A DNA stretch of 64,000 bases from Azorhizobium doebereinerae UFLA1-100 (lineage in GTDB: Bacteria; Pseudomonadota; Alphaproteobacteria; Rhizobiales; Xanthobacteraceae). The stretch lies in the NCBI RefSeq assembly GCF_000473085.1, contig NZ_AXBA01000001.1:186001-250000 (forward strand), in the 5' to 3' direction. Shown in pieces: positions 40,608 through 56,226 of this stretch. The notes below the pieces were generated by a model, which had not been told where the DNA came from, did no database searches, and saw nothing but the letters and a program-made list of their open reading frames with translations. Positions within the stretch are counted from its first letter, which is position 1, and the number at the start of each line of letters is the position of its first letter. Made by a program: the position numbers and the translations under genes.

Positions 40608-40697
40608 GGAAGGGTGGCCGAGTGGTTTAAGGCAGCGGTCTTGAAAACCGCCGTGGGTGCAAGCCCACCGTGGGTTCGAATCCCACCCCTTCCGCCA
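40608..40697 (+). tRNA. tRNA-Ser(TGA)
   Basis: A 90-nt class II tRNA including the encoded CCA. Acceptor GGAAGGG / CCCTTCC with discriminator G, anticodon stem GCGGT / ACCGC around loop CTTGAAA (anticodon TGA, reading UCA), a long variable arm (GTGGG / CCCAC) and the T arm GGTTCGAATCC. Its last 17 bases are part of the left attachment repeat of the genomic island, so the gene stays intact after integration. Confidence 0.97.
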
Positions 40698-40699
40698 TA
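40681..40699. repeat. attL: left 19-bp direct repeat of the genomic island
   Basis: The 19 bases tcccaccccttccgccata cover the 3' end of tRNA-Ser plus two bases and recur exactly at 55228-55246. The bases on either side differ between the copies. This is the footprint of a tyrosine-recombinase integration into a tRNA 3' end. Confidence 0.93.
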
Positions 40700-40743
40700 T
40701 CTAAGTTATTGATTTTATTGCATCTAACGCCTCTGGAAGTCGC

Positions 40744-40769
40744 CCCTGTTGTCACACCCTGTTGTCACA
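40744..40769. repeat. Two tandem 13-bp repeats before the integrase (probable arm-type sites)
   Basis: The 13-mer ccctgttgtcaca occurs twice back to back, ending 10 bp before the integrase ATG and starting 44 bp inside attL. An inverted copy with one mismatch lies at 55155-55167, 60 bp inside attR. Repeats of this kind at both ends are expected for integrase arm-binding sites. Confidence 0.6.
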
Positions 40770-40779
40770 GGCGGCGGCG

Positions 40780-42423
40780 ATGGCGACGACCCACATTTTT
40801 CGACGCGGCGGGACATGGTGGTTTGTTCGCGGCATGCCCCGCGACCTTCACGCAAGGTTCGGCAGCTCTCATGTCCGGCGATCCCTGCGGACCGCCGACC
40901 ACAGGCTGGCGAGACGTCGGGCAGCGCGCATGACGGTGGCGATGGACGATTGGGCGGAAGCCGTGCGTAAGGCGATTGAGGACGATCCGGAACAGCCGGA
41001 TCGCGCCCTTCTGCTGCGCCTGCTCGGCGAAGCGATGGAACGCGCCGAAAGCGAGGCGCCCCTCGGTCGGCTACGGCAGGAGGCTTCTGAACTTCGCTCA
41101 GCAACCGCAGAACTGGTCGCTTCCCGGGAAATGGCGAGGAGCACCGGGGAGGTCATCGGGCGGGTGACGCCGATCATCGGAAACTACAAGGAGAAAGCAG
41201 TTCGGTTGCGCGAATTGGAGGCGAAGCGCGCGCCATCCGACGAGATCGCGGCACTTCGCAGAGAGATGACAGAACAGATGCTGTCAATGCGATCCCTGGT
41301 CATCAACGCCCACAAGGAACGTTGGTCCGAGAGCCGGCTGTCGGAGTTGCTTCCAGCCTATCTCGAGGCCAAGGCGAAGACACTCAAGAACTCCAAGCAC
41401 CTCTCTACCCTTGGACCACGCATCGAGCTCTTCATTCAGACCGTCGGCGACAAGCCGGTCCGCGACTACGAGCGTGCCGACATCGAGACCTTCCGTGACC
41501 TCCTCGACCAGACCCCGAGCCGCTGGGAAGCGCGGTTTAGAACAAAGGTCATCTCTGAGGCCGTTGCCGCCAACGCCAAGCGGTTGCGTCCTCATCCAGC
41601 GATGGAACCAAAAACCATCGACGACGGCTATCTGTCGCACATCAAGAATTGCTTCTCGTGGCTCGAGACGACACGAAAGATCGAGAGAAATCCAGGGACC
41701 GGCGTGGTGTCCGGCCGCACCGATCCGCAGCAGCGTCCGGACGAAGGACGGTTGCCCTTCTCACCTGCCGCCCTTTCGAAATACTTGGCCTACGCTGCCC
41801 AATCTCGGTCGCGGGTATCACCGGATTATTGGCTTCCGCTGCTCGCGCTCTATACCGGCGCCCGCCTGAACGAACTGTGCCAGATCGAACCACAGCGCAT
41901 CGTCGAGCGTGATGGCATATGGTTGATCGACCTGCTCACGATCTATGATCGAAACGAGATCGACCGCTTACCCGAGGCCGAACGCCTCAAATTGAAGTCG
42001 GCTGCGGCGAGGCGGGAAATCCCACTTCATGACAACGTCGTGTCGGCTGGGTTCCTCGATTTCGTGCATGCCGGCCGAGAGCGCGGAGGGCGGCTCTTCC
42101 CAAAGCTGAAGGCCGATGAGTTCGGCTACTTCTCAGCCGCCATATCCAAGCGACTAAACCTCGACATCGAACGTGCCGGCGCAAAATCGGCTCGCGTCTC
42201 TTTTTACAGCCTGCGTCACAACTTCCGGGATGCGCTCACCAACGCAAGCGTCCCCGATCGCACCGCTGACCGTGTGATGGGACACGTCATTCAAGGGGCG
42301 CAGGCGAACTACGGCTCTCCACTCCTCGAGGTCGCAGAAATCGAGGCCATCCGGCGCATCGCATTCCCACAGGTTGATATTGCGCCATATCTTTCACGCG
42401 CCAGGGGGGGGGCTGCGGCTTAA
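40780..42423 (+). CDS. Tyrosine recombinase / site-specific integrase
   Basis: About 547 residues from ATG 40780; a TTG six codons upstream is possible. The N-terminus (HIFRRGGTWWFVRGMPRDL) is the short beta-sheet arm-binding-like domain (DUF6538 type) common in tRNA-integrating alphaproteobacterial integrases. A coiled region (about 100-180) and a SAM-like core-binding domain (about 185-300) follow. The catalytic domain shows Arg in YTGARLNEL, His-x-x-Arg in SLRHNFRD, His in MGHVIQG and the nucleophile Tyr in ANYGS. All essential residues are present. A G9 tract (42404-42412) near the stop affects only the last few residues. Confidence 0.93.
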   Translation: MATTHIFRRGGTWWFVRGMPRDLHARFGSSHVRRSLRTADHRLARRRAARMTVAMDDWAEAVRKAIEDDPEQPDRALLLRLLGEAMERAESEAPLGRLRQEASELRSATAELVASREMARSTGEVIGRVTPIIGNYKEKAVRLRELEAKRAPSDEIAALRREMTEQMLSMRSLVINAHKERWSESRLSELLPAYLEAKAKTLKNSKHLSTLGPRIELFIQTVGDKPVRDYERADIETFRDLLDQTPSRWEARFRTKVISEAVAANAKRLRPHPAMEPKTIDDGYLSHIKNCFSWLETTRKIERNPGTGVVSGRTDPQQRPDEGRLPFSPAALSKYLAYAAQSRSRVSPDYWLPLLALYTGARLNELCQIEPQRIVERDGIWLIDLLTIYDRNEIDRLPEAERLKLKSAAARREIPLHDNVVSAGFLDFVHAGRERGGRLFPKLKADEFGYFSAAISKRLNLDIERAGAKSARVSFYSLRHNFRDALTNASVPDRTADRVMGHVIQGAQANYGSPLLEVAEIEAIRRIAFPQVDIAPYLSRARGGAAA

Positions 42424-42676
42424 CCGGCTCGGACCCACGTTGAAGGACGTTCGGCGTAACCGCGGAACTCCCTCGAGGTCGCAGGCGCGCTGCCCGGCGA
42501 TCCAAGATGCACTCTATCGGCCTAAGGGATCCACTTGCCGACTGGGCTTGACCCGTGCGCCGCCGAACCACAGCCTTGAAATCAGTACCCCCTCGGTCAT
42601 CGCGCTGGCAGGCGCTCGCGAGGGGGTGTGTGAACGAGGTCAAGGATGAACACCGGCATCGCACGCGTCAAACCTG

Positions 42677-42693
42677 CCCGTCGCTCTGACGGG
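42677..42693 (+). promoter_or_regulatory. Hairpin covering the start codon of the replication gene
   Basis: CCCGTC-GCTCT-GACGGG forms a perfect 6-bp stem whose last base is the G of the GTG at 42693. It would mask translation initiation at that codon. Just upstream a longer inverted repeat (ACCCCCTCG ... CGAGGGGGT, about 42590-42630) is also present. Together they occupy most of the 269-bp spacer after the integrase. Confidence 0.4.
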
Positions 42694-44120
42694 TGACCGC
42701 CCGGCTCGGATCCACTCCGAGCCAATCGACACCCTTCTTTGATCCCAACCGTCAACAGATTTTGCCTCCGCCGGACGGTCCCGTCCGAGCCTTCGAGACT
42801 CGCTGGGCCGAAGAGCGCTGGCTGCGCGACGCCATGTCCGATTGGCCGTCACCGAAGAGCGGCAAGGTCACGCCCGAGAACCAAGTGTTCATTGAGCGAG
42901 CCGTCACGCGGCGGGAACTAATTCACCGGCGGCTCGCCGAGGGCTTCGCATTCCATGGCGGCACTATTGGCGGACGATGGCGCGAGGCATTCTCGGAGAG
43001 GGGCCTGCGATCCGACGCCAGCCACGTCTTACGCCGCATCGTGCAGCTCACCCCACGCCAGAGCGCCATGCAGGTCGGCCGCTCGAAAGATGTCATGTTC
43101 AGCACCGACGCCAAAATTCTTGGGTTGGATGAACCATGGCTCGTGCTGAACAGCGAGGTTCGCGGCGCCTTCCGGATCGATTTGGACCACGTCTTCCCCT
43201 CATGGGCGGCCCTACGATATGAATTCGAGCAGCTTCGGCTTCCGTGCCTGCCGCACGTCGTCGTCGGCTTTGAAGACGAGAATGGGAGGATTGAGCGGCC
43301 CCATGCCATCTATCTCCTTCCCTACAACGAGGGTGTGTGGTTCTCAGATGACGTCCGGTGCCGGAAGGATGTGATGGCCTTCTGGCGTGGTGTCCATGCC
43401 GGCATCACAAAGTCGCTACTCCCCCTTGGGGCAGACCCCGGCGCTCTGTCCAATGCCATGCGCACGAAGAACCCACTAAGCCCTTTCTGGTCCATTGCGA
43501 TCTGGAACGAAACGACCTTTCCCAACCTCTCAGAATGGGAGGACTGGGTGGATACCCGGACCGATCGAAGGAAGATGATCCGGGAGAGCGCAGCGACACT
43601 CGCCACTGCCGACCGCAAAGCGAGCAACGTGCTTTTCACCACGTTCCAGGCGTGGGCCTACGAGATCCTGGCCGCACTCCATCGGGCCGGTGACACCGCC
43701 TACCTCGAGGCGATCCGCACCGGCGACAGGGACGCGCTGGCCAAGCTGCTGTTCTATGCGCTGGTTCCGCGAGCCAGCCAGAGCGCAGATCATCCCCGGC
43801 AAGCCCAAGCGATTCTGTACCGGGTCGTCGACTACGCCTCCGTACGTTGGGATCCCGATCGCTGTAAGCCGGATCAGACGAAGGACCGCGGGGCCTGCGC
43901 GAACGAGGTCGCAGCCATTCGGGACGTCAGTGCCCGGCAGGCGGTGGGGGCGTATTACGCCCACGGCCTCCGTCGATCCCGATCGGCGAACATGGTCCAA
44001 GAGGCCATCGAGGCGGTGCAGGCGGCCGGAGAGGTTGCCACCGTCACGAGCATCGCCAGGCGCACGGGCCTGTCCCGCGTGACGGTCCGTACGAATTGGC
44101 CCGGACATACGATGAGGTAA
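42693..44120 (+). CDS. Plasmid-type replication initiation protein (Replicase / RepA-like)
   Basis: A 475-residue protein. The central part (HAIYLLPYNEGVWFSDDVRCR, then a helix and LGADPGALSNAMRTKNPLSPFWS) matches the pattern of the PF03090 Replicase family of ColE2-like and related plasmids, which combine an archaeo-eukaryotic-type primase core with origin binding. The C-terminus (VTSIARRTGLSRVTVRTNW) is a helix-turn-helix like the primase C-terminal module. GTG 42693 is the first start in frame; GTG is partly hidden in a hairpin, and ATG 42834 (MSDWPS) is a possible later start. It suggests the island descends from, or can act as, a small replicon. Confidence 0.7.
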   Translation: MTARLGSTPSQSTPFFDPNRQQILPPPDGPVRAFETRWAEERWLRDAMSDWPSPKSGKVTPENQVFIERAVTRRELIHRRLAEGFAFHGGTIGGRWREAFSERGLRSDASHVLRRIVQLTPRQSAMQVGRSKDVMFSTDAKILGLDEPWLVLNSEVRGAFRIDLDHVFPSWAALRYEFEQLRLPCLPHVVVGFEDENGRIERPHAIYLLPYNEGVWFSDDVRCRKDVMAFWRGVHAGITKSLLPLGADPGALSNAMRTKNPLSPFWSIAIWNETTFPNLSEWEDWVDTRTDRRKMIRESAATLATADRKASNVLFTTFQAWAYEILAALHRAGDTAYLEAIRTGDRDALAKLLFYALVPRASQSADHPRQAQAILYRVVDYASVRWDPDRCKPDQTKDRGACANEVAAIRDVSARQAVGAYYAHGLRRSRSANMVQEAIEAVQAAGEVATVTSIARRTGLSRVTVRTNWPGHTMR

Positions 44121-44139
44121 CGTCCGGTGTCACCGGTCG

Positions 44140-44162
44140 AAACTCCCAAACATTGGGAGTTT
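44140..44162. terminator. 10-bp perfect hairpin after the replication gene
   Basis: AAACTCCCAA / TTGGGAGTTT with a 3-base loop, enclosed by a second imperfectly spaced pair GGTCGA (44135-44140) and TCGACC (44171-44176), starts 20 bp after the replication gene stop. It ends in TTT only, so it could be a terminator, an attenuator for the next gene, or a binding site. Confidence 0.5.
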
Positions 44163-44191
44163 GAGAACCTTCGACCGTTATCCAGGGGACT

Positions 44192-44965
44192 GTGCCTCGC
44201 TGGATCCCGGGAATGACAAGAAACTCGCCAAGCAACGAGCCAGCGACATCCGGCGTGATCGTCGGATTTGACTACAGCCAGATACCCGCCGAGCATCGAA
44301 AAGCTCTGCGGGCCGACGCCGTGGCGATCCGCAAGAGCTTGGTCGACGCCGCGGGTGCGCTCATGGACATCGGCGAGCGGCTTGACCGGTGGCGCGATGC
44401 GCTCCCGCACGGGGCATGGCTGCCGTGGGTCCTGACGGAGACCGGCATGTCAGGCCAATGGGCGCGGGATGCCATCAACGTCTACCGGCGCTTCCGGGAC
44501 AGATGGACCTCGCTGGAAAATCTTGCGCTTCCTCAGACAGCCCTTGTCCGCCTATCCACCGCCCCAGAAGCGGCGCTTGAGGACGTCCTAGACCTCATGG
44601 GAGAGGGCGTGATGCTGCGCGTGGCGGATGTCGATGCCATCGTGAAGAGGCATCGAAAGAGGGTACAGGAAGAAGAGCATAGGGCCGCAGCAATGGCCAA
44701 AGGCGGCCGGCGACTCCCACGGCTGGGGAGGTGCTCCGGGTCATGGCTGACCATGCCCGGGACGAACTGGTGCCACGGGTCGTCGAACGCATGCTGGTCG
44801 TACTCGGTATCCTCGAGGATGCCGAGGCGAAATTGGCTTCGGGCGGGAAGTACAGCCTGGGCAAGCTCGAGGGCGAGCTGCGTGTTCATGCGCAATGGCT
44901 CACGGATGCTATCGAACAGGTCACTCAAAGGCGGGCAACCACGGCCTCTAGATCCGTCCACGTGA
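44192..44965 (+). CDS. DUF3102-like plasmid protein, 5' part (frame-disrupted)
   Basis: The first about 170 residues look genuine: FDYSQIPAEHRKALRADAVAIRKSLVDAAGALMDIGERL followed by HGAWLPWVLTETGMSGQWARDAINVYRRF is the DUF3102 pattern seen in plasmid and phage proteins. It ends in a charged helix KRHRKRVQEEEHRAAAMAKGG. After about 44,710 this frame turns into a Ser/Arg/Trp-rich shadow, while the coding signal continues in the frame of the next entry. GTG 44192 has AGGGG close upstream; ATG 44213 is an alternative. A -1 shift between 44683 and 44731 would join the two into one protein of about 330 residues. Confidence 0.6.
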   Translation: MPRWIPGMTRNSPSNEPATSGVIVGFDYSQIPAEHRKALRADAVAIRKSLVDAAGALMDIGERLDRWRDALPHGAWLPWVLTETGMSGQWARDAINVYRRFRDRWTSLENLALPQTALVRLSTAPEAALEDVLDLMGEGVMLRVADVDAIVKRHRKRVQEEEHRAAAMAKGGRRLPRLGRCSGSWLTMPGTNWCHGSSNACWSYSVSSRMPRRNWLRAGSTAWASSRASCVFMRNGSRMLSNRSLKGGQPRPLDPST

Positions 44966-45189
44966 CGCTCCTCAATCGAGCTGAACACCTTCCCGGCCCG
45001 TGGGCGGACGTTACGGCCTGCCTGCGTGACATCGCGCACTCGAGCTCGTGGGAAGCTATAAAATCGGCGGACGTGCCAGCGCTGCTCCGTAGAGGCAAAG
45101 CCACATTGCACGGCGTTCTTTCTCCGGAAGAACGCGAGGCGGCGGCTGCTATTCGAGCTGGGATGCGGCTGGCCTTTGGCAGCCCTTGA
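44731..45189 (+). CDS. Continuation of the DUF3102-like protein in another frame
   Basis: About 152 residues of normal-looking, charged helical protein (VMADHARDELVPRVVERMLVVLGILEDAEAKLASGG...). The frame is already open from 44683, where it reads QRRPATPTAGEVLRVMADH, and no start codon other than the GTG at 44731 precedes it. It is therefore better explained as the 3' part of the preceding gene than as a separate one. The function is unknown. Confidence 0.55.
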   Translation: MLRVMADHARDELVPRVVERMLVVLGILEDAEAKLASGGKYSLGKLEGELRVHAQWLTDAIEQVTQRRATTASRSVHVTLLNRAEHLPGPWADVTACLRDIAHSSSWEAIKSADVPALLRRGKATLHGVLSPEEREAAAAIRAGMRLAFGSP

Positions 45190-45482
45190 CGCTCGGCTAT
45201 CCCGCGTCGCGGGTGCGTATCTGCCGGTGCTCACCGGTCCACGCCCGGTGCCAATGAAGCAGGGGTGGTCAATATGGTGTATAGTAAAAAAGAAGGTCCC
45301 GACTACGGCCCCCTCAATCAGCATGGATGTGATCCGCTTATCATCATCTGGACGGTTCTCATGTTCGAGGCCAACCGCCTAAGTTCACTCTCGGTGAGCG
45401 GCGCCAAACTTCCGGCTCCACACGGATAGTGCCGAACCCCTCCGCCGAGAAGCCCGGCCATGACGCCTGCCAGACCGGGGCG
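45190..45482. other. Gene-free spacer between convergent island genes
   Basis: No credible coding frame. It holds two perfect palindromes close together (CCCGCG-T-CGCGGG at 45201-45213 and CCGGTG-CT-CACCGG at 45224-45237), then an AT-richer stretch. They are suitable as transcription stops for the two convergent genes but lack T runs. Confidence 0.5.
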
Positions 45483-48400
45483 TCACGCCACACGCCGAAG
45501 CGAAAATGAGGTGCCGTCCGCGGAGGCTACCTGCCCCATTCGGAACATGGCTAAGAGCACGTCGGCCACGGCCGCTCGTACCTTCGGCGCAGGCTTGAAG
45601 GTGGCGGCAATGGCGGCGGCGTCCAGGGGGCCTGTGGCCTGCATCAGCACGCCCATGACGGCGATGGTCTGCTCTCGGTCGGTCTTGGGAAAGGCGGGGC
45701 GGCCGCCGGCCACCGGCTCGGGGGCATCGTCGCCGAGATCGGCTTCCAATTGCTTGGCCTTCTCCTTCTCGGAGCCGAAGCGGGGGATCTGGTAGTCCGG
45801 CCGCAGCCAGCGCACCAGGCCGCGCTTTTCCTCCGCCGCCCGTGCCTTGTTGAGGGCGACGAGGCGGGCGAGCACCTCCTCATCGGGCAGATCGGCGGGC
45901 CAGCCATAGGCCTCGGCCACCGCGGCATCGATCTTCTCGTGCAGTTCCTTCAGGATCAGCACCAGCCCGTCATCGAAGATGCGGCGGGCCTTGGGGTCGA
46001 GATCGGCGGGCGCGACGCCGGATTTCAGAAGCTCCAGCACATTATAGAGGCCGGTGAGGGTGAGATTCTCATGGGCCGCCAGCACCCGCTTGCGGTGGGC
46101 GTCCAATTCTTCGGCGAGGTCGCCGATGACCGCCTTCTGCGCCTCAGTGGCGGCTGGGAAGGGGAAGGGATCGAAACACACCGACTTAGAATATCGCGGA
46201 CGGTCCTCCAATGTCCCACCCTGAGCGAGAGCCCAAATGACATGATGTTGCGCTGAAAGAACCCCCAAGAAATAGGATCGAAATTCAGCGATTGCGACAA
46301 TCATATTATCGGGAATGATATCTGCATTCAGAAACTGGAAAACACGATGCTTGGTCGTCTCGACTGTCGCAATATAACGGGGCAGTCCTGATAGCGCTGG
46401 GCGCAAATTCTGGCGTGGCTTCCCAAAAACCCACCATTGGGCCAAGTACGCTTCTGCATCTTTTGTCGGTGAGCGCTGGAATTGGGCATCCCGCTCCGGC
46501 TTCACCGTCCGCAGGAGATATTGATAGACTTCCGGGTAGCGCGCCCGCACCTCGTCGGCCTCCAGGCCGAACAGGTCGATGACCATCACCCCGCGCGCCC
46601 GCGCCGCCAGATCGCGGCCGTTGCGATAGGCGCGAATGTGCCGCTCAAGTCCTGGCCGGCGCCCCAGCCCCAGTTCGGCAGCCTGCTCCGGCGTGACGAT
46701 GAAACCTGAGCCGTGCAGTTTCACGCCGGGCGACGACAGCCCTTCATTGGCCAGCAGCGGCACCGCCGTGGTCACATCCACCCCCACCGTCAGGTCCGAA
46801 TGGATCTTGCCCATCCGCTCCTGAAACCCGATCACCGGCGCGTCGGTGTCGATGCCCTCCTCGCTGGTCACGTCCCGCAGTAGGCCGTCGCGGGCGCCAT
46901 TCGCGGCCACCGTCATGGCGATGCGCACCGCCGCGCTGTCGCGGGCTGCCTTGGTCCAGGAATGGTCGGGAATGGCCATCACCAGCGACAGCGGCTTCTT
47001 GGCGTTGAGATAGCGCTCCATCACCCGGCGCTGGAACACCTGGCTGATGGAATTGGTGGTGACGAAGCCGAAGCGACGCAGCACCGTGCCCTTGCGCAGC
47101 AGCAGATCGGCGGCGCGATCCCACCAATACATGACGAAATCCGCGCTCTCATTCATGTGCGGATGCGCCGCCCACAGCGCCTCGGTGCGGGCATCCCCGA
47201 GCCGCGCCCGCAGATCCTTGCCGCCGATGAACGGCGGATTGCCGACGATGAATTCCGCCTTCGGCCACTCCGGCAGGCGCGCATTGGGATAGGCCTCGGC
47301 GCCGTCCACGAACTGGGGCACCGGGTAGCCGTCCCAGGTCAGCACCGCATCGCGGGCCTGGATGTTCTTGAAGGCGCGCAGGATCGGCTCGCTGGGCTGG
47401 CCGCCACGGGTGCGCACATGCCATTGCAAATGGCCGATCCATAGCACCAGTTCGGCGATTGCCGCCGCGCGCGGGTTCAGCTCCATGCCCAGGAACTGGT
47501 GCGGGTCCACGGAATGGCCCTCCAGGCCCACCAGCGCCTCCTGGCCGCCGAGATCGGCCAGCGCTTCCAGCACCTCGCCTTCCAGGCGCTTCATCAGCTC
47601 CAGCGCCACATAGAGGAAGTTGCCGGTGCCGCAGGCGGGATCGAGCACCCGCGTCTCGCACAATTTGTCGTGGAACGCCTTCACGGTGGCGGCGGCATCC
47701 TTGCCCCGCCCGGCGGTCTTCTGCCGCTCGGCGGTGGAGAGCACCTGCGCCCAATCGGAGCGCAGCGGATCGAGGATGGTGGCGATGACGAGGCGCTCCA
47801 CCGTGTCCAGCGCCTGCTCCAGCAGGGTGCCGAAGATGGCCGGCTCGACATCGCGCCAATCAAACTCCGCCGCCGCCCGCAATTCGCCGATGGCCGCCTT
47901 GTCCAAAGGCAAGGCGCGGCGGTTCTTGAAGAATTCGCCATTGAAGCGGCGCACCTTCTGCTGGAGCGCGGCGGTGAAGCCGCCCTCGTCCATGGCCCGC
48001 CACAGATCCTCCAGCATGCCGGGGAAGATGGCGGGCTTGGCCTCGCAATCGCGCAGCAGGGTCTTGAAGCTGTTGGGCGGCAGCAGGTCCACATCCTCGG
48101 CGAACATGGTGAACAGCAGGCGCATGAGGAACATGGCCACACCCTCGGCGGGCTGGCCCGCCTCCTCCAGGGCTTTCGAGACCTTGGCGAGACGCTCGGC
48201 AATCTCCCGCGTCACCCGCGCCGCGTGGCGGGAGGGGTCGAGCGCCATGGGCGCGGTCCAGATGGCCGCGAGGCGGGCGCGCACATCCGGATCGCGCAGA
48301 TCCTCCAGATAGATGCGGAAGGAGTTGCGATCTGGGAACTGGTCATAGGCCTTCCCGTCGCGGCGGAAGTTGGCATAGACCTCGATGCAGTGGCCCACGT

Positions 48401-48842
48401 CGCACACCAGCACGAAGGGCGGCGGCTCATGGGCGGCCGGCAGCAGGCGCACATAGTCTTCCGCCTGGCGGCGGGCATTCATCATCAGCACGTCCCAGGC
48501 CCGGTCGGCGCCGCGCCGGCCACGGGTCTTGGATGCGCTCTCGGTGGGGGCGTCCGCCAGTTTCTTGGCGCCGGAAAAGCGCGACTGCTTGGCCTCCAGG
48601 ATGAAGCAGTCGCGCTTGTAGAGATCGATGCGCTTGGATGAGACGGTGCCGTCGCGAGCGGTCTCCTTCACCGCCCGCTCGAACACATAGTCGTTCGATT
48701 CGGTGGAGGCATTGGCCGGGTCCGGTCGCGGCAGGTCCAGCACCGCGCACAGTTCCGGCAGGAACAGCGCGTAGTTCGCCCGCTCCTGCCCGCCTTCACG
48801 CCCCTGCCAGCGCGCGATGAACGCATCGACTGCCGCACTCAT
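45483..48842 (-). CDS. MmeI-like (type IIL) fused restriction endonuclease-DNA methyltransferase
   Basis: About 1,119 residues from ATG 48842 (GGGAG upstream). The N-terminal endonuclease domain has Asp73, then nine residues, then Glu83-Ala-Lys85 (RIDLYKRDCFILEAK): the D-X9-ExK site known in MmeI. A helical spacer (about 200-345) leads to the adenine-methyltransferase with motif I DPACGTGNF (401-409) and motif IV NPPF (535-538). A target-recognition domain and C-terminal helices follow. One chain would both cut and protect DNA. Odd: where related enzymes have a roughly 18-residue piece with the motif X GAHYTP just before VERLVIATIL, this protein passes from LEQALD straight to TVERLV (about 343-350), so AdoMet binding may be impaired. 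It stands alone, without BREX or DISARM partner genes. Confidence 0.8.
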   Translation of the reverse strand: MSAAVDAFIARWQGREGGQERANYALFLPELCAVLDLPRPDPANASTESNDYVFERAVKETARDGTVSSKRIDLYKRDCFILEAKQSRFSGAKKLADAPTESASKTRGRRGADRAWDVLMMNARRQAEDYVRLLPAAHEPPPFVLVCDVGHCIEVYANFRRDGKAYDQFPDRNSFRIYLEDLRDPDVRARLAAIWTAPMALDPSRHAARVTREIAERLAKVSKALEEAGQPAEGVAMFLMRLLFTMFAEDVDLLPPNSFKTLLRDCEAKPAIFPGMLEDLWRAMDEGGFTAALQQKVRRFNGEFFKNRRALPLDKAAIGELRAAAEFDWRDVEPAIFGTLLEQALDTVERLVIATILDPLRSDWAQVLSTAERQKTAGRGKDAAATVKAFHDKLCETRVLDPACGTGNFLYVALELMKRLEGEVLEALADLGGQEALVGLEGHSVDPHQFLGMELNPRAAAIAELVLWIGHLQWHVRTRGGQPSEPILRAFKNIQARDAVLTWDGYPVPQFVDGAEAYPNARLPEWPKAEFIVGNPPFIGGKDLRARLGDARTEALWAAHPHMNESADFVMYWWDRAADLLLRKGTVLRRFGFVTTNSISQVFQRRVMERYLNAKKPLSLVMAIPDHSWTKAARDSAAVRIAMTVAANGARDGLLRDVTSEEGIDTDAPVIGFQERMGKIHSDLTVGVDVTTAVPLLANEGLSSPGVKLHGSGFIVTPEQAAELGLGRRPGLERHIRAYRNGRDLAARARGVMVIDLFGLEADEVRARYPEVYQYLLRTVKPERDAQFQRSPTKDAEAYLAQWWVFGKPRQNLRPALSGLPRYIATVETTKHRVFQFLNADIIPDNMIVAIAEFRSYFLGVLSAQHHVIWALAQGGTLEDRPRYSKSVCFDPFPFPAATEAQKAVIGDLAEELDAHRKRVLAAHENLTLTGLYNVLELLKSGVAPADLDPKARRIFDDGLVLILKELHEKIDAAVAEAYGWPADLPDEEVLARLVALNKARAAEEKRGLVRWLRPDYQIPRFGSEKEKAKQLEADLGDDAPEPVAGGRPAFPKTDREQTIAVMGVLMQATGPLDAAAIAATFKPAPKVRAAVADVLLAMFRMGQVASADGTSFSLRRVA

Positions 48843-48917
48843 GCCCGACTCCCCCAGCGGCCGTGACAGTAGGGGAAGTCGCCGGCGAACGGCAAATCGG
48901 TGCCCGTGAGAGGCAGG

Positions 48918-49072
48918 TGTCCCCGGGACAATCCCATGGTCGGCCAAAAGGACCGCTCTCCAACGGCTTGTCGCTATCCCGCCGGCGATCGACCGTAGGT
49001 GAGCCAGGCATGACCGATATCCGCGCACTCCGTGCGCTCCATCGGTCACCTGGCCAGGGGGCTTCCGCCCCC
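48918..49072. other. Candidate origin of transfer (oriT) upstream of the mobilization genes
   Basis: The 256-bp divergent spacer holds a cluster of inverted repeats. TGTCCC-C-GGGACA is at 48918-48930. A two-tier hairpin TGACCGAT...ATCGGTCA enclosing GCGCAC-TCC-GTGCGC is at 49011-49048. GGGGGC-TTCC-GCCCCC is at 49057-49072. The sequence TATCCCGC (48975-48982) differs by one base from the IncP-type nick core TATCCTGC. Position directly before mobC and the relaxase fits oriT; the nick assignment is a guess. Confidence 0.45.
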
Positions 49073-49098
49073 GTGCACCCCCGCAGCAGGAGACGACC

Positions 49099-49362
49099 AT
49101 GCGTGACCAGATCAAAGCCAGGCTTGAGGAGATTATGGCGGGCGAGGCGGCGCCAGACAGGATGGTCGGCTCGACGACCGTGCGCATCGCCGTCGGCCTC
49201 ATCTTGGACGAGCTCGATGCGACGAATCCGACGATGGCTTTGACCCCCGCGGAGGCTCTTCTCTGGCTCGACGACGTGCAGCGTCGCGCCATTACGGAGT
49301 TCCGCGAATACGGCCCACGCTGGGCTCAAATGAAGCGCGCGGCCCAGGCTCAGAGGGCCTGA
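49099..49362 (+). CDS. Small conserved-looking protein upstream of mobC
   Basis: An 87-residue protein with a good AGGAG before ATG 49099. It is mostly helical and mildly acidic in the middle (TVRIAVGLILDELDATNPTMALTPAEALLWLDDVQRRA). I do not recognise a family. Its stop overlaps the mobC ATG (TGATG at 49360-49364), so it is the first gene of the mob operon and may be a relaxosome accessory or regulator. Confidence 0.6.
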   Translation: MRDQIKARLEEIMAGEAAPDRMVGSTTVRIAVGLILDELDATNPTMALTPAEALLWLDDVQRRAITEFREYGPRWAQMKRAAQAQRA

Positions 49363-49769
49363 TGAGACGGCGCGGCAGCGAGACCCGAGCGATGTCCGGC
49401 CAAGTGCTCGTGCGCCTGTCGCCGGCGCTCGCCGCTGCCGTGTCCGCCGCAGCCCTGTCGGCCGACCTCTCGGCCGGGGCGTGGCTCCGCCACCTCGCCG
49501 CTGAGGGCGTGGGACAGCCTGATCAAGCCCGGCCGACGAAGCCTGTCGATGCGGCGCCCGATCCGCTGGTCGCGGAGCTTGGGCTCGTCGCTAGGAACGT
49601 CGGCCGCATGAATGGCGCCTTGGTCCAGCTCGCGAAGACCATGCGCGAGACGCTGCACCCAGACCACGCGGCCTCCGAGCAGGTGCTCGCACGCCTGCGG
49701 GCCGCGCAGCGCGAGCTCATCGATCTCGTTCAGGAGGTGCGCCGTGATCGCGGGCGCCACGAGGGGTAA
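49362..49769 (+). CDS. mobC: MobC-like plasmid mobilization relaxosome protein
   Basis: A 135-residue protein with an N-terminal ribbon-helix-helix-like part (GQVLVRLSPALAAAVSAAALSADLSAGAWLRHLAAEG) and the C-terminal MobC motif region LVAELGLVARNVGRMNGALVQLAKTMRE. MobC proteins bind oriT and help strand opening for the relaxase. Translation start overlaps the previous stop; MSGQVL (49392) is an alternative start. The 3' end overlaps the relaxase start by 26 bp. Confidence 0.8.
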   Translation: MRRRGSETRAMSGQVLVRLSPALAAAVSAAALSADLSAGAWLRHLAAEGVGQPDQARPTKPVDAAPDPLVAELGLVARNVGRMNGALVQLAKTMRETLHPDHAASEQVLARLRAAQRELIDLVQEVRRDRGRHEG

Positions 49770-52104
49770 GGGCGGCAACGCGCTCGCCCGGCATCTGACG
49801 TCACGGGCGAAGGGGCAGCGGTCGGAGCTCATCGATGTGCGCCACCTCGGCGCGACGACGACGGCCGAGGCGCTGGACAGCCTCGTCGCCGGCTCGGCGC
49901 ATGGGCGGACGGACCGCCCGGTGCACCATCTGCACGTCGATCCCCCACATGGCTGGGATCGCGCCAAGATCCGCGACGCCTTCCTTCACCGATACGAGGA
50001 GGAATTCGGCCTGACGGCCCTGCCACGTTTCATCCAGGAGCATGAGAAAGAGGGCCGCGTGCACTGGCATGTGGTCTACAGCCTCGTCCGGGACGACGGC
50101 CGATGCGTGAGCCTGTCCCATGACATGGCACGGCGCGAAAAGGTCTGCCGGATCACCGAGTTTGAGACCGGCATGCCCCTCGTGAAGGGGGCGCACACGA
50201 AGGCCGTCGTCGCCGCCCTGGTGCGTGACGGGCGCGAGGACGTCGCTCGCTCGATCATCCGAGCTGGTCACCTTCGGGGGCCTCGTGCCGTCGCTGTAAC
50301 GCCCATGCAGCGGCATCAGGCGGATCGGACGGCCATGGACCCCAAGACGGTCCAGACGGCGGCCTTGGCGGCTTGGAAGGCGTCGGACAGCGGCGCGGCC
50401 ATGGAAGCCGCCCTCGCCGCCGCCGATCTGCGTCTCGCCGCCGGCGACAAAGGCCCCGTACTCGTCGATCGCGCCGGCGGAGCTCACTCCCTGGTGCGGA
50501 TCCTCGGAGCGGCCTCCCGCGCCGCCGGGGATCGAATCCCTGCCGCCGTGGTGAAGGCCCGCGTCGGTGGGCTTCACCTGCCCGTCCTTCAGGGGGTTCA
50601 GCATGCCCTCGCAGACACCCGCCGCCACCCCGTCGAAGCCCCAGCAGAAGGCCCACCCAGCCGAAGCGATCCTGCGCGAGGCGCAGGGAGCGCACGCAGT
50701 CAGCCGAAGCCTTCTGCCGCTTCTGAACCTCCTCCAGGAGCCAGAGGCCTCCGGGAGCCTCAACGAGATCAAGGCGCTTCTGAAAGCCATCGTCATGATC
50801 TTAGGTCAGCAGTCAGAGATGCTGCGCGAGATCAAGGCCAGCGTTCCCGTTGGACCGAATCCGATCGGGCAGCGGTAGCCGCTTTGGGTCGGATCAATGT
50901 GACCGGCATCCGCGGTGATGCCGAGGCCATTCGGCTGCGCCCGATGCGCCGTGCTGTCCGCGAACATGCCGCCGCACTGGCCCTGTCCCGGATCGACATC
51001 GGGACCCTGGCTGGCGACGCCCAGCGGATTCTCGTACCGGCTACCGCCGGCAGCATTTTCCCACATCCTGAATCTCAGCCACAAAAGGATTCAACGATGG
51101 CAGTCAAGGGGTTCGGGTCGATCGGCCGCAGGCAGGATTACAAGACAAGGTTGCTCGAGGGAGCGGTCCCCGATTTCGACGCGAGCGCATGGGTTGATGA
51201 TCTGCATCTGGTGAAGGCTGGCGGCCCCTCAACGCCGACCCGCATCCTCATGTGCGATCGCGGCTGGGTGGAGATCGATCGGAAGTCAGGCATCGTCAGA
51301 ACCTGGGGGCCAATCGGTCGGGCTGAGCCGTTGGCGAAAGCACTGGCTGCCGCTGGCGGCTGGGACATTGAGCGCCTCGTACCGTCTGGCGAGGCCCGCC
51401 GGGTTGGTGTCACAACGCCACGCCCGACCTTCGTTTCACCGCACGTGACGGAAAGTCTGATCACTTGGTGGCGCGAACGCGGATACGATGCGACACCGAC
51501 ACCCGATGGCGCATGGGTCGACGCTGGAGGTGCTCATCTCCACGACACTGGCGACCATGTCGAACTCCACGGCCGCCTGACGTCTGAAGCGGCCCGCGCC
51601 CTCGTGCTCAAGGCCCTCGAAGCCTGGGACGGTGGCGCCGAGCTTTCGGGTCCTTGGAGCCAAGTTGACCAGGATACCCTATGGCTGGAGGCTCAGCGAA
51701 CTGGTGTTGAGTTGCACCGATGCCAGCCTTCGGACGCGGCATGTCGCGCATGGGAGGCTGAGGTCCAAAAGGCTCAGCAGCACGAGACCACTGTCGGACT
51801 TGTTAGTACCAGCAGCCGGGAAGCGGAGACCTTACGCTCCGCCGCCGCAGGAGACATCGCAGCGCTCGGAAGGCTGAACCCAGGACTAAGGGCATTCGTG
51901 GGCTCATACCTTGACGATGACCAGCGCGCGGAACTCGCCGAAGCCGAACCGGTAGACCTCATCCCAGAACTTCGCCGCTTTCGCTCGCTTGGTGCCGAGG
52001 AACTCAAGATGCGACGCCGCCAGTGCGATCCCGAGCAGGTTTCCCAAGCCGCGGAGGACAAGCCGGAAGGGGACGATCCCGGCAGCCCCAATCTGGCGAT
52101 GTGA
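49744..52104 (+). CDS. Relaxase/mobilization nuclease with C-terminal LPD7-like repeats
   Basis: About 786 residues from GTG 49744 (MIAGATRGKGGNALARHL), a start inside mobC as usual for such pairs; the frame is open from 49612. The N-terminal nuclease has VHHLHVDPPHGWD and the histidine cluster HEKEGRVHWHVVYS (about residue 100), the metal-binding motif III of Mob-type relaxases. Pro/Arg-rich linkers follow (about 280-420). The C-terminal part has two repeats resembling polyvalent-protein LPD7 domains (LAKALAAAGGWDIERL..., LVLKALEAWDGGAELSG...LEAQRTGVELHRCQP). An in-frame ATG at 51097 with AAAGGA 8 bases upstream could yield the C-terminal part separately. Confidence 0.8.
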   Translation: MIAGATRGKGGNALARHLTSRAKGQRSELIDVRHLGATTTAEALDSLVAGSAHGRTDRPVHHLHVDPPHGWDRAKIRDAFLHRYEEEFGLTALPRFIQEHEKEGRVHWHVVYSLVRDDGRCVSLSHDMARREKVCRITEFETGMPLVKGAHTKAVVAALVRDGREDVARSIIRAGHLRGPRAVAVTPMQRHQADRTAMDPKTVQTAALAAWKASDSGAAMEAALAAADLRLAAGDKGPVLVDRAGGAHSLVRILGAASRAAGDRIPAAVVKARVGGLHLPVLQGVQHALADTRRHPVEAPAEGPPSRSDPARGAGSARSQPKPSAASEPPPGARGLREPQRDQGASESHRHDLRSAVRDAARDQGQRSRWTESDRAAVAALGRINVTGIRGDAEAIRLRPMRRAVREHAAALALSRIDIGTLAGDAQRILVPATAGSIFPHPESQPQKDSTMAVKGFGSIGRRQDYKTRLLEGAVPDFDASAWVDDLHLVKAGGPSTPTRILMCDRGWVEIDRKSGIVRTWGPIGRAEPLAKALAAAGGWDIERLVPSGEARRVGVTTPRPTFVSPHVTESLITWWRERGYDATPTPDGAWVDAGGAHLHDTGDHVELHGRLTSEAARALVLKALEAWDGGAELSGPWSQVDQDTLWLEAQRTGVELHRCQPSDAACRAWEAEVQKAQQHETTVGLVSTSSREAETLRSAAAGDIAALGRLNPGLRAFVGSYLDDDQRAELAEAEPVDLIPELRRFRSLGAEELKMRRRQCDPEQVSQAAEDKPEGDDPGSPNLAM
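50603..50878 (+). CDS. Nested MobB-like small protein inside the relaxase gene
   Basis: A 91-residue frame entirely inside the relaxase gene, in another reading frame. ATG 50603 has a strong AGGGGG 8 bases upstream. The product looks like a real protein, with heptad-like hydrophobics (SLLPLLNLLQEPEASGSLNEIKALLKAIVMILGQQSEML), whereas the relaxase frame over the same DNA is low-complexity (Pro/Arg/Ser/Ala). In the IncQ plasmid RSF1010, mobB lies inside mobA in the same way. Homology to MobB itself was not shown; the name rests on position and character. Confidence 0.55.
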   Translation: MPSQTPAATPSKPQQKAHPAEAILREAQGAHAVSRSLLPLLNLLQEPEASGSLNEIKALLKAIVMILGQQSEMLREIKASVPVGPNPIGQR

Positions 52105-52106
52105 CG

Positions 52107-52550
52107 ATGCGCGATCGCGATGCATCCCGTCTTCGTCGATACGTCATCCGGCGGGCCACTGGTGATGCCCATCACGAATATGTCCGTTACGATGGTGACC
52201 TTGGCGGCGGGCTACTGTGCGACGAACGAACAGCCAGAAGTCATGATCAATGGCGGCGCATTCGGCTTCCAGGACAGCCGTGGTGCCCGGCCTTGGGGCG
52301 AGACGTCACGATCGCTGGGGACACGGCGCTCCAGGCATTCTTCGAAACGGCTTTCGCCGATGGATGGCGTCGCCTCGAGATTGAAGTTCGTCGATACCCA
52401 GCACGCTGCCTGCGGGAATGGCACGAGAAGGGACAGCGTCTAATTCAGGCGGCACAGGCGGCAGCCGAAGGACGACGCCTGCCGGGCAAGCTTACGGGAT
52501 GGCCTTCTAGGCGTGGCACCGGCGCCCGCTCCTTGCTACCCCTGCGCTGA
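52107..52550 (+). CDS. Hypothetical island protein downstream of the relaxase
   Basis: About 147 residues from ATG 52107, two bases after the relaxase stop. It is basic and Trp/Arg-rich (SRLRRYVIRRATGDAHHEYVRYDGD, TALQAFFETAFADGWRRLEIEVRRYPARCLREWHEKG). No family is recognised. The close spacing suggests it is the last gene of the mob operon; it may be a small accessory factor. The C-terminal 25 residues are low-complexity. Confidence 0.5.
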   Translation: MRDRDASRLRRYVIRRATGDAHHEYVRYDGDLGGGLLCDERTARSHDQWRRIRLPGQPWCPALGRDVTIAGDTALQAFFETAFADGWRRLEIEVRRYPARCLREWHEKGQRLIQAAQAAAEGRRLPGKLTGWPSRRGTGARSLLPLR

Positions 52551-52691
52551 ACGCACCAATTCGCGATGAAGGAACATTCACGCGTAGTCAAAAGATGCGC
52601 AGAATTGGCTCGCACAGGAGCATCGGCACATGGCGATCAGAGAATAAGTGCTGTGGAGCGCTGTCCCCAACACCCCCACCCGCCAGGGTTT

Positions 52692-55028
52692 TCAACGACA
52701 GATGCTGGTGAGCGCCTTCAGGTGTTTCGCATCCACCTGACCCATCAGAGCGAGCAGAGCTGCATTCGCCCCTTTTATCTCTTCAAGCGTCATCGAGGAA
52801 AATGAGAGCAAGTCGTCCAAATTATCAGAATGGGACTCGACCTGCCTCAATCGCTCCACGGCTGTGAAGCGAACACGATCAAGGTCAGGGTAGCCGGTGA
52901 ACAATTTGTTCATTTGCGAGACGATTCCACCACCCACAGGCGCCTTGAATGCCAGAAATATATCGAGCACCCTCCTCAATACATTAGGCATCATGTAACC
53001 ATGATCGTAATGCTCATCGGGGGCGCCCGAGAATTTAATCACGTGACTGAACAGGTAGTGATATTCAGAATCGTATTCACGCAACAACTTTGACATCTCC
53101 ACCAAATGAGATGTTCTACGCGACGTATTTTTGGGCAATCGAACGTCGATGAAAAATAGGGCAGCTTGTGGATCGTGGCCCTCCTTACCTTCCTCGCGCC
53201 TTGTCTTATTTTTCCACGCCTTCTTGAACTCATTCATGCATTGCTGGTTATGGGTCAGGATGAAAACCTGGCACGCCTTCTCAAGTCGGCTTTTTACCAG
53301 AGAGCAGGCATAATTGAGTGCTTTTGTATCCAAACTTGAGATTGGATCGTCAACGACGACGATCAGATCTTTCAGCTTCCGTCCGTCAGCCTCGAGTGAC
53401 GATAAGAAGTAGGCGATCGCGATTGCGGTCTTCTCTCCTTCACTGGGGAAACCCTTGATTTCTTGCCCGTGCCGATGCAGGGCGTACCCCGTTTCCAAAG
53501 GTTGAATAGTCAGCTCCTGGTGCCCGAGATAGGAGGCTACCAGACTGTTGATCGCAGTGGCCGCCGGGCCATGAGTGCGGATCCGGCGACGGAGCTCTTC
53601 GGCCTTTTTGCCGATATCCTCCAACTCCTTCTGCGCGGCATCTCGGGCGGTGATTGCCTTTGTCACAGCGTTTGCAGAAGCATCGAAGTCGCCTTTTAAT
53701 TTGGCAACGAAATGCTTGCGGATTAATTCTTCCGCGCCTGATTTGACGGCGGAAAACGCCTCAACTTTCTGATTATGATCGCCAATCACGCCATTCACGT
53801 TAGCGATCTCGGAAGCCAGAGACCCTGCAACCTGCACGACCACATCCAGGGACGGAAGCCTTCCGACGTCCACTGGGGAGGCAGGCTTCTTCAACTTTTC
53901 CTCAACCAACGGCTTTAAGGGCTCCAGATGCGCCCGTGCCGTTCGAACAGCCTCTGCGAATTTCCCTCTGCGAGCCTTATAATCCTCGCGCAGCATTGCC
54001 ACCAAATCGTCGTCTTGCGGGGCTGCATGGTCGAGACCGGTAAGTTCGCCAAGCACCTCTTCAAGACGCGCTCCTGCCTTTTGTAGCCGCGACATAAACT
54101 CATCGATCCGGTCGTCCAATGCCGATGCGAGCAGCCTCAACCGCTCATCCGGGAACGGACTCCCGCACATAAGGCAGACATCCAGCGACTCGTTCTTATG
54201 AAACTCGAATCCTTCCTTTAGCCAGATCAGCATGTCTGGGTGCTGTTGCGCTTCGGCAAGCGCGGTGGTGCTGAATGATTGCTCACACATGCTTCGAATG
54301 AACTCGAACGCCTTTTTGACCGTCTGCGCGTCGAACGTCAAAGGGGCAATCGCCGGTGGCGGAGTATCGAGCTTGCAGATATCTTCCTGAACCGCCAACT
54401 GCTCATCGGTAAGAGTGGTGTCGCGCAGGCCCGCCCAGGCATCGTGATCCTTCACGAGAGCGGGCGCCTCATACTTTCTGTTGCCCAAATGCAACCTGCT
54501 GGCCACCGTTTTAGCGGTGGTGCGCTTGTATGCCGTGAAGGCTTTCTCCGCGGCGGTTAGAGAGCCTTCCGCCTTGCTCTTCCGTGATGTGATACTTGGT
54601 ATTCTAGCTTCGGCTGCCGACAGCTCTGCCGCAGCCTCTGCCTGATCCGCGCCGATGAAAAAGACCGGATTAGCCCGCCCTTGAGCCCACTGGAAATTCC
54701 GTTCCACGTAGTCGGCATTAAAGACGAGAACACGACGCTCCAGCCCCGCAAGGGCGGCCGGGCAACTGAGCTTCGCACCGCTGTCCATTTCGATCTCAAA
54801 GGAGCACTCTTCTGGCAGCCTTTCGTGCCGCTCACCCGTTTCCAGACTCGCGAACAGGCGAGAGAGGGTGCTCTTCCCTGAACCGTTAAACCCGTAGATC
54901 AGGTTGTATCGCCGGAACGGCAACTTTGGACTCGACTTGGAATAATCCGCAAGAATCCCCATGCCCCGCATAGAGCTGATCGTCGAGACGATGTCAGTCA
55001 AAAGCCCCCCCCCCCCAAGGACACCCAT
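52692..55028 (-). CDS. AAA_13-type ATPase with zinc hook, RloC/PrrC-like (probable anti-phage anticodon-nuclease family)
   Basis: About 778 residues. Walker A GFNGSGKST is at about 46-54; a long coiled-coil interrupted by a zinc-hook CLMCG (Cys near 285 and 288) follows. The ABC signature-like GFPSEGEKTAIAIAYFL, Walker B LIVVVDDPISSLD and the H-loop LTHN come late, then an all-helical C-terminal domain of about 200 residues. A Rad50-like ATPase with Zn hook plus a C-terminal domain is the RloC plan; RloC/PrrC cleave tRNA anticodons when phages disable restriction. I could not identify the catalytic Arg-Glu-His set, so nuclease activity is unproven. Start choice: the family N-terminal strand (DIVSTIS...GILADY) needs a start upstream of 54985, either ATG 55028 (with a G12 run inside the coding region) or TTG 55001. 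It is more AT-rich than the chromosome. Confidence 0.65.
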   Translation of the reverse strand: MGVLGGGGLLTDIVSTISSMRGMGILADYSKSSPKLPFRRYNLIYGFNGSGKSTLSRLFASLETGERHERLPEECSFEIEMDSGAKLSCPAALAGLERRVLVFNADYVERNFQWAQGRANPVFFIGADQAEAAAELSAAEARIPSITSRKSKAEGSLTAAEKAFTAYKRTTAKTVASRLHLGNRKYEAPALVKDHDAWAGLRDTTLTDEQLAVQEDICKLDTPPPAIAPLTFDAQTVKKAFEFIRSMCEQSFSTTALAEAQQHPDMLIWLKEGFEFHKNESLDVCLMCGSPFPDERLRLLASALDDRIDEFMSRLQKAGARLEEVLGELTGLDHAAPQDDDLVAMLREDYKARRGKFAEAVRTARAHLEPLKPLVEEKLKKPASPVDVGRLPSLDVVVQVAGSLASEIANVNGVIGDHNQKVEAFSAVKSGAEELIRKHFVAKLKGDFDASANAVTKAITARDAAQKELEDIGKKAEELRRRIRTHGPAATAINSLVASYLGHQELTIQPLETGYALHRHGQEIKGFPSEGEKTAIAIAYFLSSLEADGRKLKDLIVVVDDPISSLDTKALNYACSLVKSRLEKACQVFILTHNQQCMNEFKKAWKNKTRREEGKEGHDPQAALFFIDVRLPKNTSRRTSHLVEMSKLLREYDSEYHYLFSHVIKFSGAPDEHYDHGYMMPNVLRRVLDIFLAFKAPVGGGIVSQMNKLFTGYPDLDRVRFTAVERLRQVESHSDNLDDLLSFSSMTLEEIKGANAALLALMGQVDAKHLKALTSICR
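55005..55016 (-). repeat. Homopolymer run of 12 G at the 5' end of the AAA ATPase gene
   Basis: Twelve consecutive C on the plus strand (G on the coding strand), nine codons or fewer from either candidate start. Runs of this length are prone to slippage during replication. Confidence 0.95.
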
Positions 55029-55154
55029 TAACAACCGCGCTCATACTGAGGCGAAGCAGTGCCGTCAGCAACCTACGGTCGCGTCAGCGTTAGGCCTAGC
55101 CGCTGGGAAGAGGCAAATTGTTGACAGAAACGCCCCTCCGTTGCTACATCGTGC

Positions 55155-55167
55155 TGTGACAACAGCG
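55155..55167. repeat. Inverted copy of the integrase-proximal 13-bp repeat near attR
   Basis: tgtgacaacagcg matches the reverse complement of ccctgttgtcaca at 12 of 13 positions and ends 60 bp inside attR. Confidence 0.55.
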
Positions 55168-55227
55168 CGGCTTAGATCGCTTGATTCATACGAAAAATCA
55201 ATGACTTACGCGGATTTTGGGAACAGC

Positions 55228-55246
55228 TCCCACCCCTTCCGCCATA
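55228..55246. repeat. attR: right 19-bp direct repeat of the genomic island
   Basis: An exact second copy of the 19 bases at the tRNA-Ser 3' end. No tRNA body precedes it, so this is the island's own copy of the attachment core. The 205 bp that follow, up to the Sel1 gene, contain no gene. Confidence 0.93.
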
Positions 55247-55451
55247 ACATTCTGATAATACTTTCATATTTCTGATTCTAAAAGCACCACAACTCCGGCA
55301 AAGAACGAGAACAAATCGGATCTATTTGGCGCTGAAACGCACATTTGGGTGCAGAAAGTCCCGAAAAGTCCCGAACTGCTTTCCCTGAGAACGCACGATT
55401 TTTAACGCCAGGCTTTTGCAGCGCGGCCCGGAAAATACAGCTGGGCCCGCA

Positions 55452-56204
55452 TCATTGTCCCAATCGCGCCAATGCCTTGGAGGCAGCCGCATTTCCGAGA
55501 TCGGCGGCCTGCCGGTAAAGAGCGATGGCCTTGTCCAGATCCCGCGGTACGCCTGCGCCTTTTTCATAGAGGCCCGCCATCCCGACGATGCCGTCCGAGG
55601 CGATGATGTCGCCGCGCGAGGCTGATTTTCGGTACCAGGCCATTGCCTCGGCATCGTCTTGCGGAACACCGCCTCCCGTTTCATAGGCGCGGCCCAAGGC
55701 ATACTGGCTGGTGATATCGCCGGCCTCAGCCGCCTTGCGGAACCATTGCGCCGCCGTGGCGTCGTCGCCTCGCTGCTCGGCGATCAGGCCCACATAGCGC
55801 CCGGCTTTCATGTCGCCCGCGGCGTCCGCCTTCTTGAAACAGGCGAGCGCCTTTTCCAGATCGGCGGTAACGCCCCAGCCGTTCATCCAGATCTGGCCGA
55901 GATAGAGATTGCCGCGGCCCTTGCCGGCGTCCGCCGCCTTTTGGGCCCATTCCATGGCGGCGGCATAGTTCTTTTCCACGCCGTTGCCGCCTTCGAGATA
56001 GATCATGGCGACATGTTCCAGCGCCGCGGCTTTTCCGTCCGCGGCAGCCTGCTTGAACAGTTTCAGCGATTGCGCGAAATCGCCCGCATCCATCGCCTTT
56101 TGCGCAGCGAAAAGCTCGGCATCGGATTGCATGTCCTCCCGCGCCAGCGTCGGGCAGGCGCACATCAGCAGGACGGCGAAGGTCAGGAGCATTGCACGGA
56201 TCAT
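55452..56204 (-). CDS. Sel1-repeat (TPR-like) exported protein
   Basis: A 250-residue protein with a signal peptide (MLLTFAVLLMCACPTLA, cut near residue 21; the Cys pattern is not a clean lipobox). Five to six Sel1 repeats follow at 36-residue spacing, e.g. ALEHVAMIYLEGGNGVEKNYAAAMEWAQKAADAG, SQYALGRAYETGGGVPQDDAEAMAWYRKSASRG and GMAGLYEKGAGVPRDLDKAIALYRQAADLG. Such proteins act as periplasmic scaffolds for protein-protein contact. It lies 22 bp downstream of the hydrolase gene on the same strand, so the two are probably co-transcribed. Confidence 0.88.
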   Translation of the reverse strand: MIRAMLLTFAVLLMCACPTLAREDMQSDAELFAAQKAMDAGDFAQSLKLFKQAAADGKAAALEHVAMIYLEGGNGVEKNYAAAMEWAQKAADAGKGRGNLYLGQIWMNGWGVTADLEKALACFKKADAAGDMKAGRYVGLIAEQRGDDATAAQWFRKAAEAGDITSQYALGRAYETGGGVPQDDAEAMAWYRKSASRGDIIASDGIVGMAGLYEKGAGVPRDLDKAIALYRQAADLGNAAASKALARLGQ

Positions 56205-56226
56205 GATTCAACCCATCGCCGGCGGC

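Follow-up and report, generated by a model that had tools for sequence, protein, structure and literature searches.

An island at a tRNA-Ser gene of Azorhizobium doebereinerae UFLA1-100, probably an integrative mobilizable element with restriction-type cargo and relatives at several tRNA genes

A stretch of 64,000 nucleotides of the Azorhizobium doebereinerae UFLA1-100 genome (contig NZ_AXBA01000001.1, positions 186,001 to 250,000; hereafter the window) contains, at the 3' end of a tRNA-Ser(TGA) gene, an island of 14,547 bp measured from repeat to repeat, which is very probably an integrative mobilizable element (IME). Its features are listed below by window coordinates and strand (att, attachment site; ORF, open reading frame; Rep, replication protein; oriT, origin of transfer).

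40608..40697, +, tRNA-Ser(TGA), integration target, intact
40681..40699, +, left att core, 19 bp
40780..42423, +, tyrosine recombinase, DUF6538 and Phage_integrase by profile (ORF opens with TTG at 40762; ATG at 40780 is the likelier start)
42693..44120, +, Rep, tied to Pfam Replicase via plasmid relatives
44192..45189, +, DUF3102-like gene, reading frame broken
45483..48842, -, MmeI-type IIG restriction-modification enzyme, 1119 aa
49050..49082, +, probable oriT, inverted repeat GGGGGC/GCCCCC followed by GTGCACCCCC
49099..49362, +, ORF of 87 aa, no family
49362..49769, +, MobC/TraJ-like relaxosome protein with weak profile matches (start may be 49392)
49744..52104, +, relaxase, PF03432, 786 aa, with a GTG start that aligns with relatives
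52107..52550, +, small ORF, no family in profile searches
52692..54971, -, AAA_13 zinc-hook ATPase, PADLOC PDC-S06 (ORF opens at 55034)
55228..55246, +, right att core, 19 bp

The att 19-mer is made up of the 17 bases at the 3' end of tRNA-Ser(TGA) and a following TA, and is identical in both copies. The window has just one other exact 19-mer direct repeat, a local pair at 37042/37062. When up to 3 mismatches are allowed, the 17-base tRNA part occurs three times (0.32 expected), the exact occurrences being those of the two element copies only, and no further degenerate att site was found within the window. An earlier note on this DNA, which had described a perfect 19-bp direct repeat around about 14.6 kb, an intact tRNA-Ser at the left end and a tyrosine recombinase just inside it, is thus borne out on the ends and, by profile, on the recombinase. 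The latter carries the motifs GARLNEL and HNFR, which we take to lie at the expected positions of the catalytic Arg and HxxR.

The G+C content of the island (62.9%) differs from that of the DNA to the left (69.6% at 20000-40600) and to the right beyond 57.8 kb (72.5%). The right end is not marked by composition because the adjoining 2.5 kb are also GC-poor (61.3%). This low-GC stretch (55247-57800) encodes a Sel1-repeat protein and an esterase. The esterase found any match in 9 of 61 genomes, its own included, and the other eight aligned over short stretches only (best E 4.7e-7), indicating that the site is a variable region; with strong esterase relatives missing from the 60 related genomes, the stretch may be another acquired piece.

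Relatives of the island were located by a scan of genome contigs seeded with six Reps, which yielded 17 loci, including Aquabacter cavernae and Azorhizobium oxalatiphilum (Rep 81 and 66%, respectively), Aureimonas, Microvirga, Pannonibacter and Roseibium, as well as Chelativorans, Neorhizobium, Rhizobium, Pleomorphomonas and a Rhodopila metagenome-assembled genome (MAG). Within the order, 7 of 397 genomes, the host included, were Rep-positive. Eighteen loci were examined, namely the window, 16 of the 17 loci from the scan and a locus of genome G366; those left out were L101 (a weak MAG relative), L073/G195 (weak, with two stops) and L074 (the second Rep of G366). Exact repeats of a tRNA 3' end, 17-64 bp long, bracket 10 of the 18 loci at Ser, Gln, Met and Glu tRNA genes, as listed here with the restriction-type or other cargo recognised in each element.

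Window: Ser(TGA), 19 bp; IIG
Aquabacter: Ser(GGA), 22 bp; IIG
A. oxalatiphilum: Gln(TTG), 17 bp; type III Mod, Res-type helicase, C5 methylase
M. roseola: Ser(GCT), 17 bp; C5 methylase, HATPase protein weakly resembling a restriction enzyme
Pannonibacter: Gln(CTG), 21 bp; restriction-methylase of 1635 aa
R. aquae: Met, 49 bp; IIG, helicase, T5orf172
Rhizobium Leaf371: Ser(TGA), 34 bp, plus a further 21; type IV enzyme, IIG-like gene, helicase and T5orf172 clusters as in R. aquae
R. laguerreae: Ser(TGA), 64 bp; no restriction gene recognised, HipA-like kinase, Sel1 protein
Pleomorphomonas: Ser(GGA), 22 bp; two C5 methylases, Vsr, distant AAA_13 relative
G366: Glu, 20 bp; IIG-like gene, C5 methylase, impB/UmuC-type gene

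Each of the nine other bracketed elements has an integrase-like ORF just inside one end; eight of these match Phage_integrase at E < 0.001, of which four pass the curated cut-off, while a DUF6538 match below the cut-off is all that was obtained for the ninth. As controls, tRNA-Ser(TGA) sites without this element in ten relatives were searched over 14-39 kb downstream (L054, a short contig end, was left out), and the longest repeats there were of 8-14 bases. The occurrence of relatives at other tRNA genes, each bracketed by the 3' end of its own tRNA, supports the interpretation of the island as an IME. Genome G366 carries two Rep relatives on different contigs, and two elements of this type may thus coexist in one cell. 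A further Rep relative (46% identical) is located on the Microvirga terrae plasmid pR24_2 (14902-23157), whose record also lists, in its vicinity, genes for a reverse transcriptase and a TIR-domain protein.

The Rep of the island has no family of its own by profile search and no Replicase (PF03090) match over the cut-off. It is linked to Replicase indirectly, through distant plasmid relatives: Rep relatives occur on 8 plasmid records and two of the three scanned pass the cut-off of 26 narrowly (Azospirillum and Acidiphilium, 27.9 and 26.7 bits), while one of four Reps of the family gave a sub-threshold match. Across 16 aligned Rep sequences D165, H204 and D248 are invariant and D163 is nearly so, residues which presumably fit primase-type Rep motifs. 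An AlphaFold model (mean pLDDT 72, pTM 0.50), confident at residues 151-240 (83-94), matched no solved structure at E < 0.001, and the Rep profile run against PDB chains retrieved mainly TetR-type helix-turn-helix chains.

The relaxase matches PF03432 (32.6 bits; cut-off 24.6), and no MOBV-type profile matched it in the same search, placing it outside the MOBV sequence family. Its sequence found no match among PDB chains; the best solved matches of its model were MobA of R1162 (2ns6, E 2.8e-4) and 4ht4 (E 3.1e-3), with low TM-scores (0.32 by query length), and the predicted fold would be HUH-relaxase-like. The MobC profile matches lie below cut-offs (best E about 5e-4). The assignments of a replication protein, MobC and a relaxase made in the earlier note can thus be retained, the first through Replicase-matching plasmid relatives and MobC as the weakest of the genes tested.

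Upstream of mobC and the relaxase gene an inverted repeat followed by GTNNACCCCC was found at 9 of the 18 loci, which are nine of the ten with a relaxase of the window-type clade, Chelativorans being the single locus of that clade without the motif. A regular expression for the motif gave two further matches in 755 kb, located elsewhere and lacking the inverted repeat; a stricter pattern occurred in 4 of 397 genomes, all Rep-positive, the reversed pattern was found in none of the genomes listed, and IMG/VR contained no match. Six plasmid records carry a related relaxase. Among them is pTF4.1 of Acidithiobacillus ferrooxidans (MOBP according to PLSDB), which shares with the island a relaxase (34% identical), a MobC and, ahead of the mobC gene, this oriT-like motif, but is a plasmid of 4.1 kb with four genes in its record and neither an integrase nor a restriction gene. 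A Methylobacterium plasmid, the second relaxase-bearing plasmid examined, had no clear copy of the motif. When the pTF4.1 stretch was searched against 72,556 plasmid records, two other matches only were obtained, both in Xanthomonas hortorum plasmids that are also relaxase-positive; they lie about 400 bp upstream of the relaxase gene and are weak taken alone (E 0.09). The stretch at 49050-49082 is a probable oriT, with a nick site placed by conservation.

In an alignment of ten relaxases His17, His62, His100, His107 and His109 are invariant, and the first Tyr of the window relaxase does not occur before residue 84; the pTF4.1 relaxase has a His at the place equivalent to His17. The relaxase MobM is described as using a His nucleophile (PMC5863519). 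In the window relaxase His17 could perhaps take the place of Tyr as the nucleophile. A Tyr lies near His17 in four of the ten (Rhizobium, Neorhizobium, Chelativorans), and therefore these may use a Tyr nucleophile. The candidate His nucleophile is what the island relaxase has in common with the MOBV1 enzyme MobM; unlike the latter, it is of PF03432 type and is known here from its sequence.

The closest relative by Rep, the Aquabacter cavernae element (L085), has the same order of rep, DUF3102-like gene, IIG gene, oriT motif, mobC and relaxase gene as the window, and a counterpart similar by eye to the small ORF at 52107..52550 directly 3' of its relaxase gene; no description of this element was found in the literature searched. 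Identity to the window decreases from Rep (81%) and IIG (78%) to relaxase (65%), MobC (33%) and integrase (27%), and the Aquabacter element differs also in its target, tRNA-Ser(GGA), and in having no AAA_13 match. Seven integrases compared in all 21 pairs were 22.6-33.1% identical. The relaxases of the ten bracketed elements belong to the window-type PF03432 clade in seven and to MobA_MobL in three. At the level of these comparisons, the integrase (hence the tRNA target) and the cargo are shown to be exchanged around a rep-mob core.

With regard to the cargo, the restriction-methylase of the earlier note proved to be a full-length member of the MmeI-type IIG enzymes: four MmeI Pfam domains (N-terminal, spacer, methylase and target recognition domain) pass the cut-off in a single protein, the PADLOC IIG model scores 1476 bits and the motifs DPACGTGNF, NPPF and a D-x9-ExK-type motif are present, so that domains and methylase and nuclease motifs are shared with that family. 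The zinc-hook ATPase was likewise recognised by the AAA_13 profile, with a Walker A, a CLMC hook and a Walker B-like motif, and matches PDC-S06, a candidate defence family in PADLOC (490 bits). Its sequence found no match among PDB chains; as to a relation with the anticodon nucleases RloC/PrrC, the features shown are the Walker A, the CxxC hook and the AAA_13 match. Restriction or related genes were recognised in 9 of the 10 bracketed elements, a count of occurrence and not a measure of enrichment over genomes at large. Defence genes on hitch-hiking elements are emphasised in PMC11389934. The IIG and AAA_13 cargo probably restricts phage or rival DNA.

It could be argued that the IIG enzyme serves mainly the maintenance of the element by addiction, defence being secondary. 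Type II restriction-modification systems have been suggested as addiction devices in IMEs (PMC5704250) and the Aquabacter element has retained this IIG (78% identity); however, the cargo varies between elements (type III, type IV and helicase-containing sets) and the AAA_13 protein falls in a family with a candidate role in defence. We regard a mainly addictive role as unlikely, and the two roles can coexist.

Several observations weigh against the interpretation of the island as an IME. No clean empty site was found for the window copy in the two congeners compared (G001, G002), which both keep RlpA and tRNA-Ser(TGA), lack the island there and continue into DNA unrelated to the right flank of the window. 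Eight of the 18 loci have no tRNA-anchored repeat; several of these were seen only in part, being read to a contig end or over about 10-20 kb, and a missing repeat there is therefore no proof of absence. Repeats of 14 bases occurred in three of the ten control sites, two of them at the tRNA end; short repeats anchored in this way are therefore found at the hotspot without the element too, and other islands may sit there. To these are added the weak MobC call, the indirect Rep assignment, the fact that excision and transfer are read from gene families and the broken DUF3102-like frame, a gene which is an intact single ORF in the Aquabacter and R. aquae elements, which points either to some decay or to a fault in the assembly.

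Some support on the question of empty sites comes from R. laguerreae, whose element occupies the same tRNA gene as that of the window and was compared with 9 of 30 other matched genomes. None of the nine relatives has element DNA beside the tRNA, and part of the right flank is kept in seven of them within about 5 kb of the tRNA (nearest 0.45 kb), one of these seven matches spanning 103 bases only. The junctions are inexact and this is therefore near-empty-site evidence for the relative, not for the window copy. The site of the A. oxalatiphilum element, tRNA-Gln(TTG), is present in the host genome (G000) and in G001, and the right flank of that element was not found within about 3.5 kb of it in either. 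In congener G001 the DNA 3' of the same tRNA-Ser contains ORFs that resemble by eye contractile phage tail sheath and tube genes (L044, 10763-12536).

The broken frame, together with a variable right flank holding further low-GC DNA, would also suit a former IME that has decayed and is now fixed in the chromosome, but such a history is improbable, since the att copies are still identical and long open frames remain for int, rep, the relaxase, IIG and AAA_13. A phage satellite of the phage-inducible chromosomal island (PICI) or P4-like type, with int and Rep moved in phage capsids and the mob genes incidental, would share the int, Rep and defence cargo at a tRNA gene that are also typical of satellites, and the integrase has a phage integrase family as its nearest PHROG, but it is highly improbable given that Rep found no match in 50,697 phage records, that nine island proteins gave no match to any PHROG with a packaging or structural annotation, and that the relaxase is kept in relatives, paired with an oriT motif absent from IMG/VR. 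Profile and PHROG searches thus did not give the set of packaging or capsid-hijacking genes without a relaxase by which a satellite would be known.

The island is therefore best read as an IME: it carries an integrase, a relaxase and a candidate oriT of its own, its att ends are identical and lie at a specific site, and no secretion family was recognised among the ORFs scanned (small ORFs were not all scanned). The earlier note had already called it an integrative mobilizable element devoid of secretion genes, and the exact ends, the profiles, the tRNA-bracketed relatives and the oriT candidate uphold this; mobility and defence, which it had drawn from gene families, keep that status here.

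From these data we infer the following course. The tyrosine recombinase would insert the circular form at the 3' end of tRNA-Ser(TGA), with the tRNA left intact and the 19-bp core duplicated at the other end; the ends themselves are seen directly. The excised circle may be replicated for a time by the Replicase-type Rep, and relaxase and MobC would nick oriT near 49.07 kb, perhaps via His17 instead of Tyr. The nicked strand could then exit through the secretion channel of another element, and the IIG and AAA_13 proteins would probably restrict phage or rival DNA. The host genome has two VirB4-type matches by profile, accompanied by RepC, RepB and TrbI on contig C45 and by TrbI and a secretion ATPase on contig C41, the remaining genes of both Trb-type clusters being assigned by reading ORFs. 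Both clusters, that of C45 beside repABC genes in particular as an example of such a channel, are possible helpers.

The IMEs described in the part consulted of PMC5704250 include BcenGI2 (tRNA-Ala, Rep_3), SGI1 (trmE, Rep_3), an IncP island (guaA, RepA) and MGIVchMoz6 (restriction-modification type II). The island shares with these proteobacterial elements a tyrosine integrase, a specific 3'-end target and plasmid-type Rep or restriction genes; since tRNA targets, plasmid Reps and restriction systems all occur among them, each single trait is already known. In contrast, its Rep is linked to PF03090, outside the Rep types tabled there, and the window family has a different oriT and relaxase clade and several tRNA targets within one family. 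No IME with a PF03090-type Rep, no account of this family and none of its oriT motif or of an oriT of pTF4.1 was recognised in a titles-level search of open-licence PMC literature, which is a weak negative. We propose tentatively, with chances slightly below even, that these elements are IMEs with defence cargo, mostly of Hyphomicrobiales, and form a family not recognised before, which is retargeted by integrase swaps and whose relaxase has replaced Tyr by His as in pTF4.1. The core of such a family, held with the same reserve, would be a Replicase-type Rep, MobC, relaxase and an oriT of its own kept across tRNA genes.

Altogether, one island leads to a family that can be recognised by its Rep together with the oriT motif, a signature by which mobilization and the choice of helper become testable. 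The relaxase of the island offers a test of whether DNA cutting by His occurs in relaxases outside MOBV. Restriction and related genes ride compact mobilizable elements of this kind in soil- and plant-associated bacteria belonging to several families.

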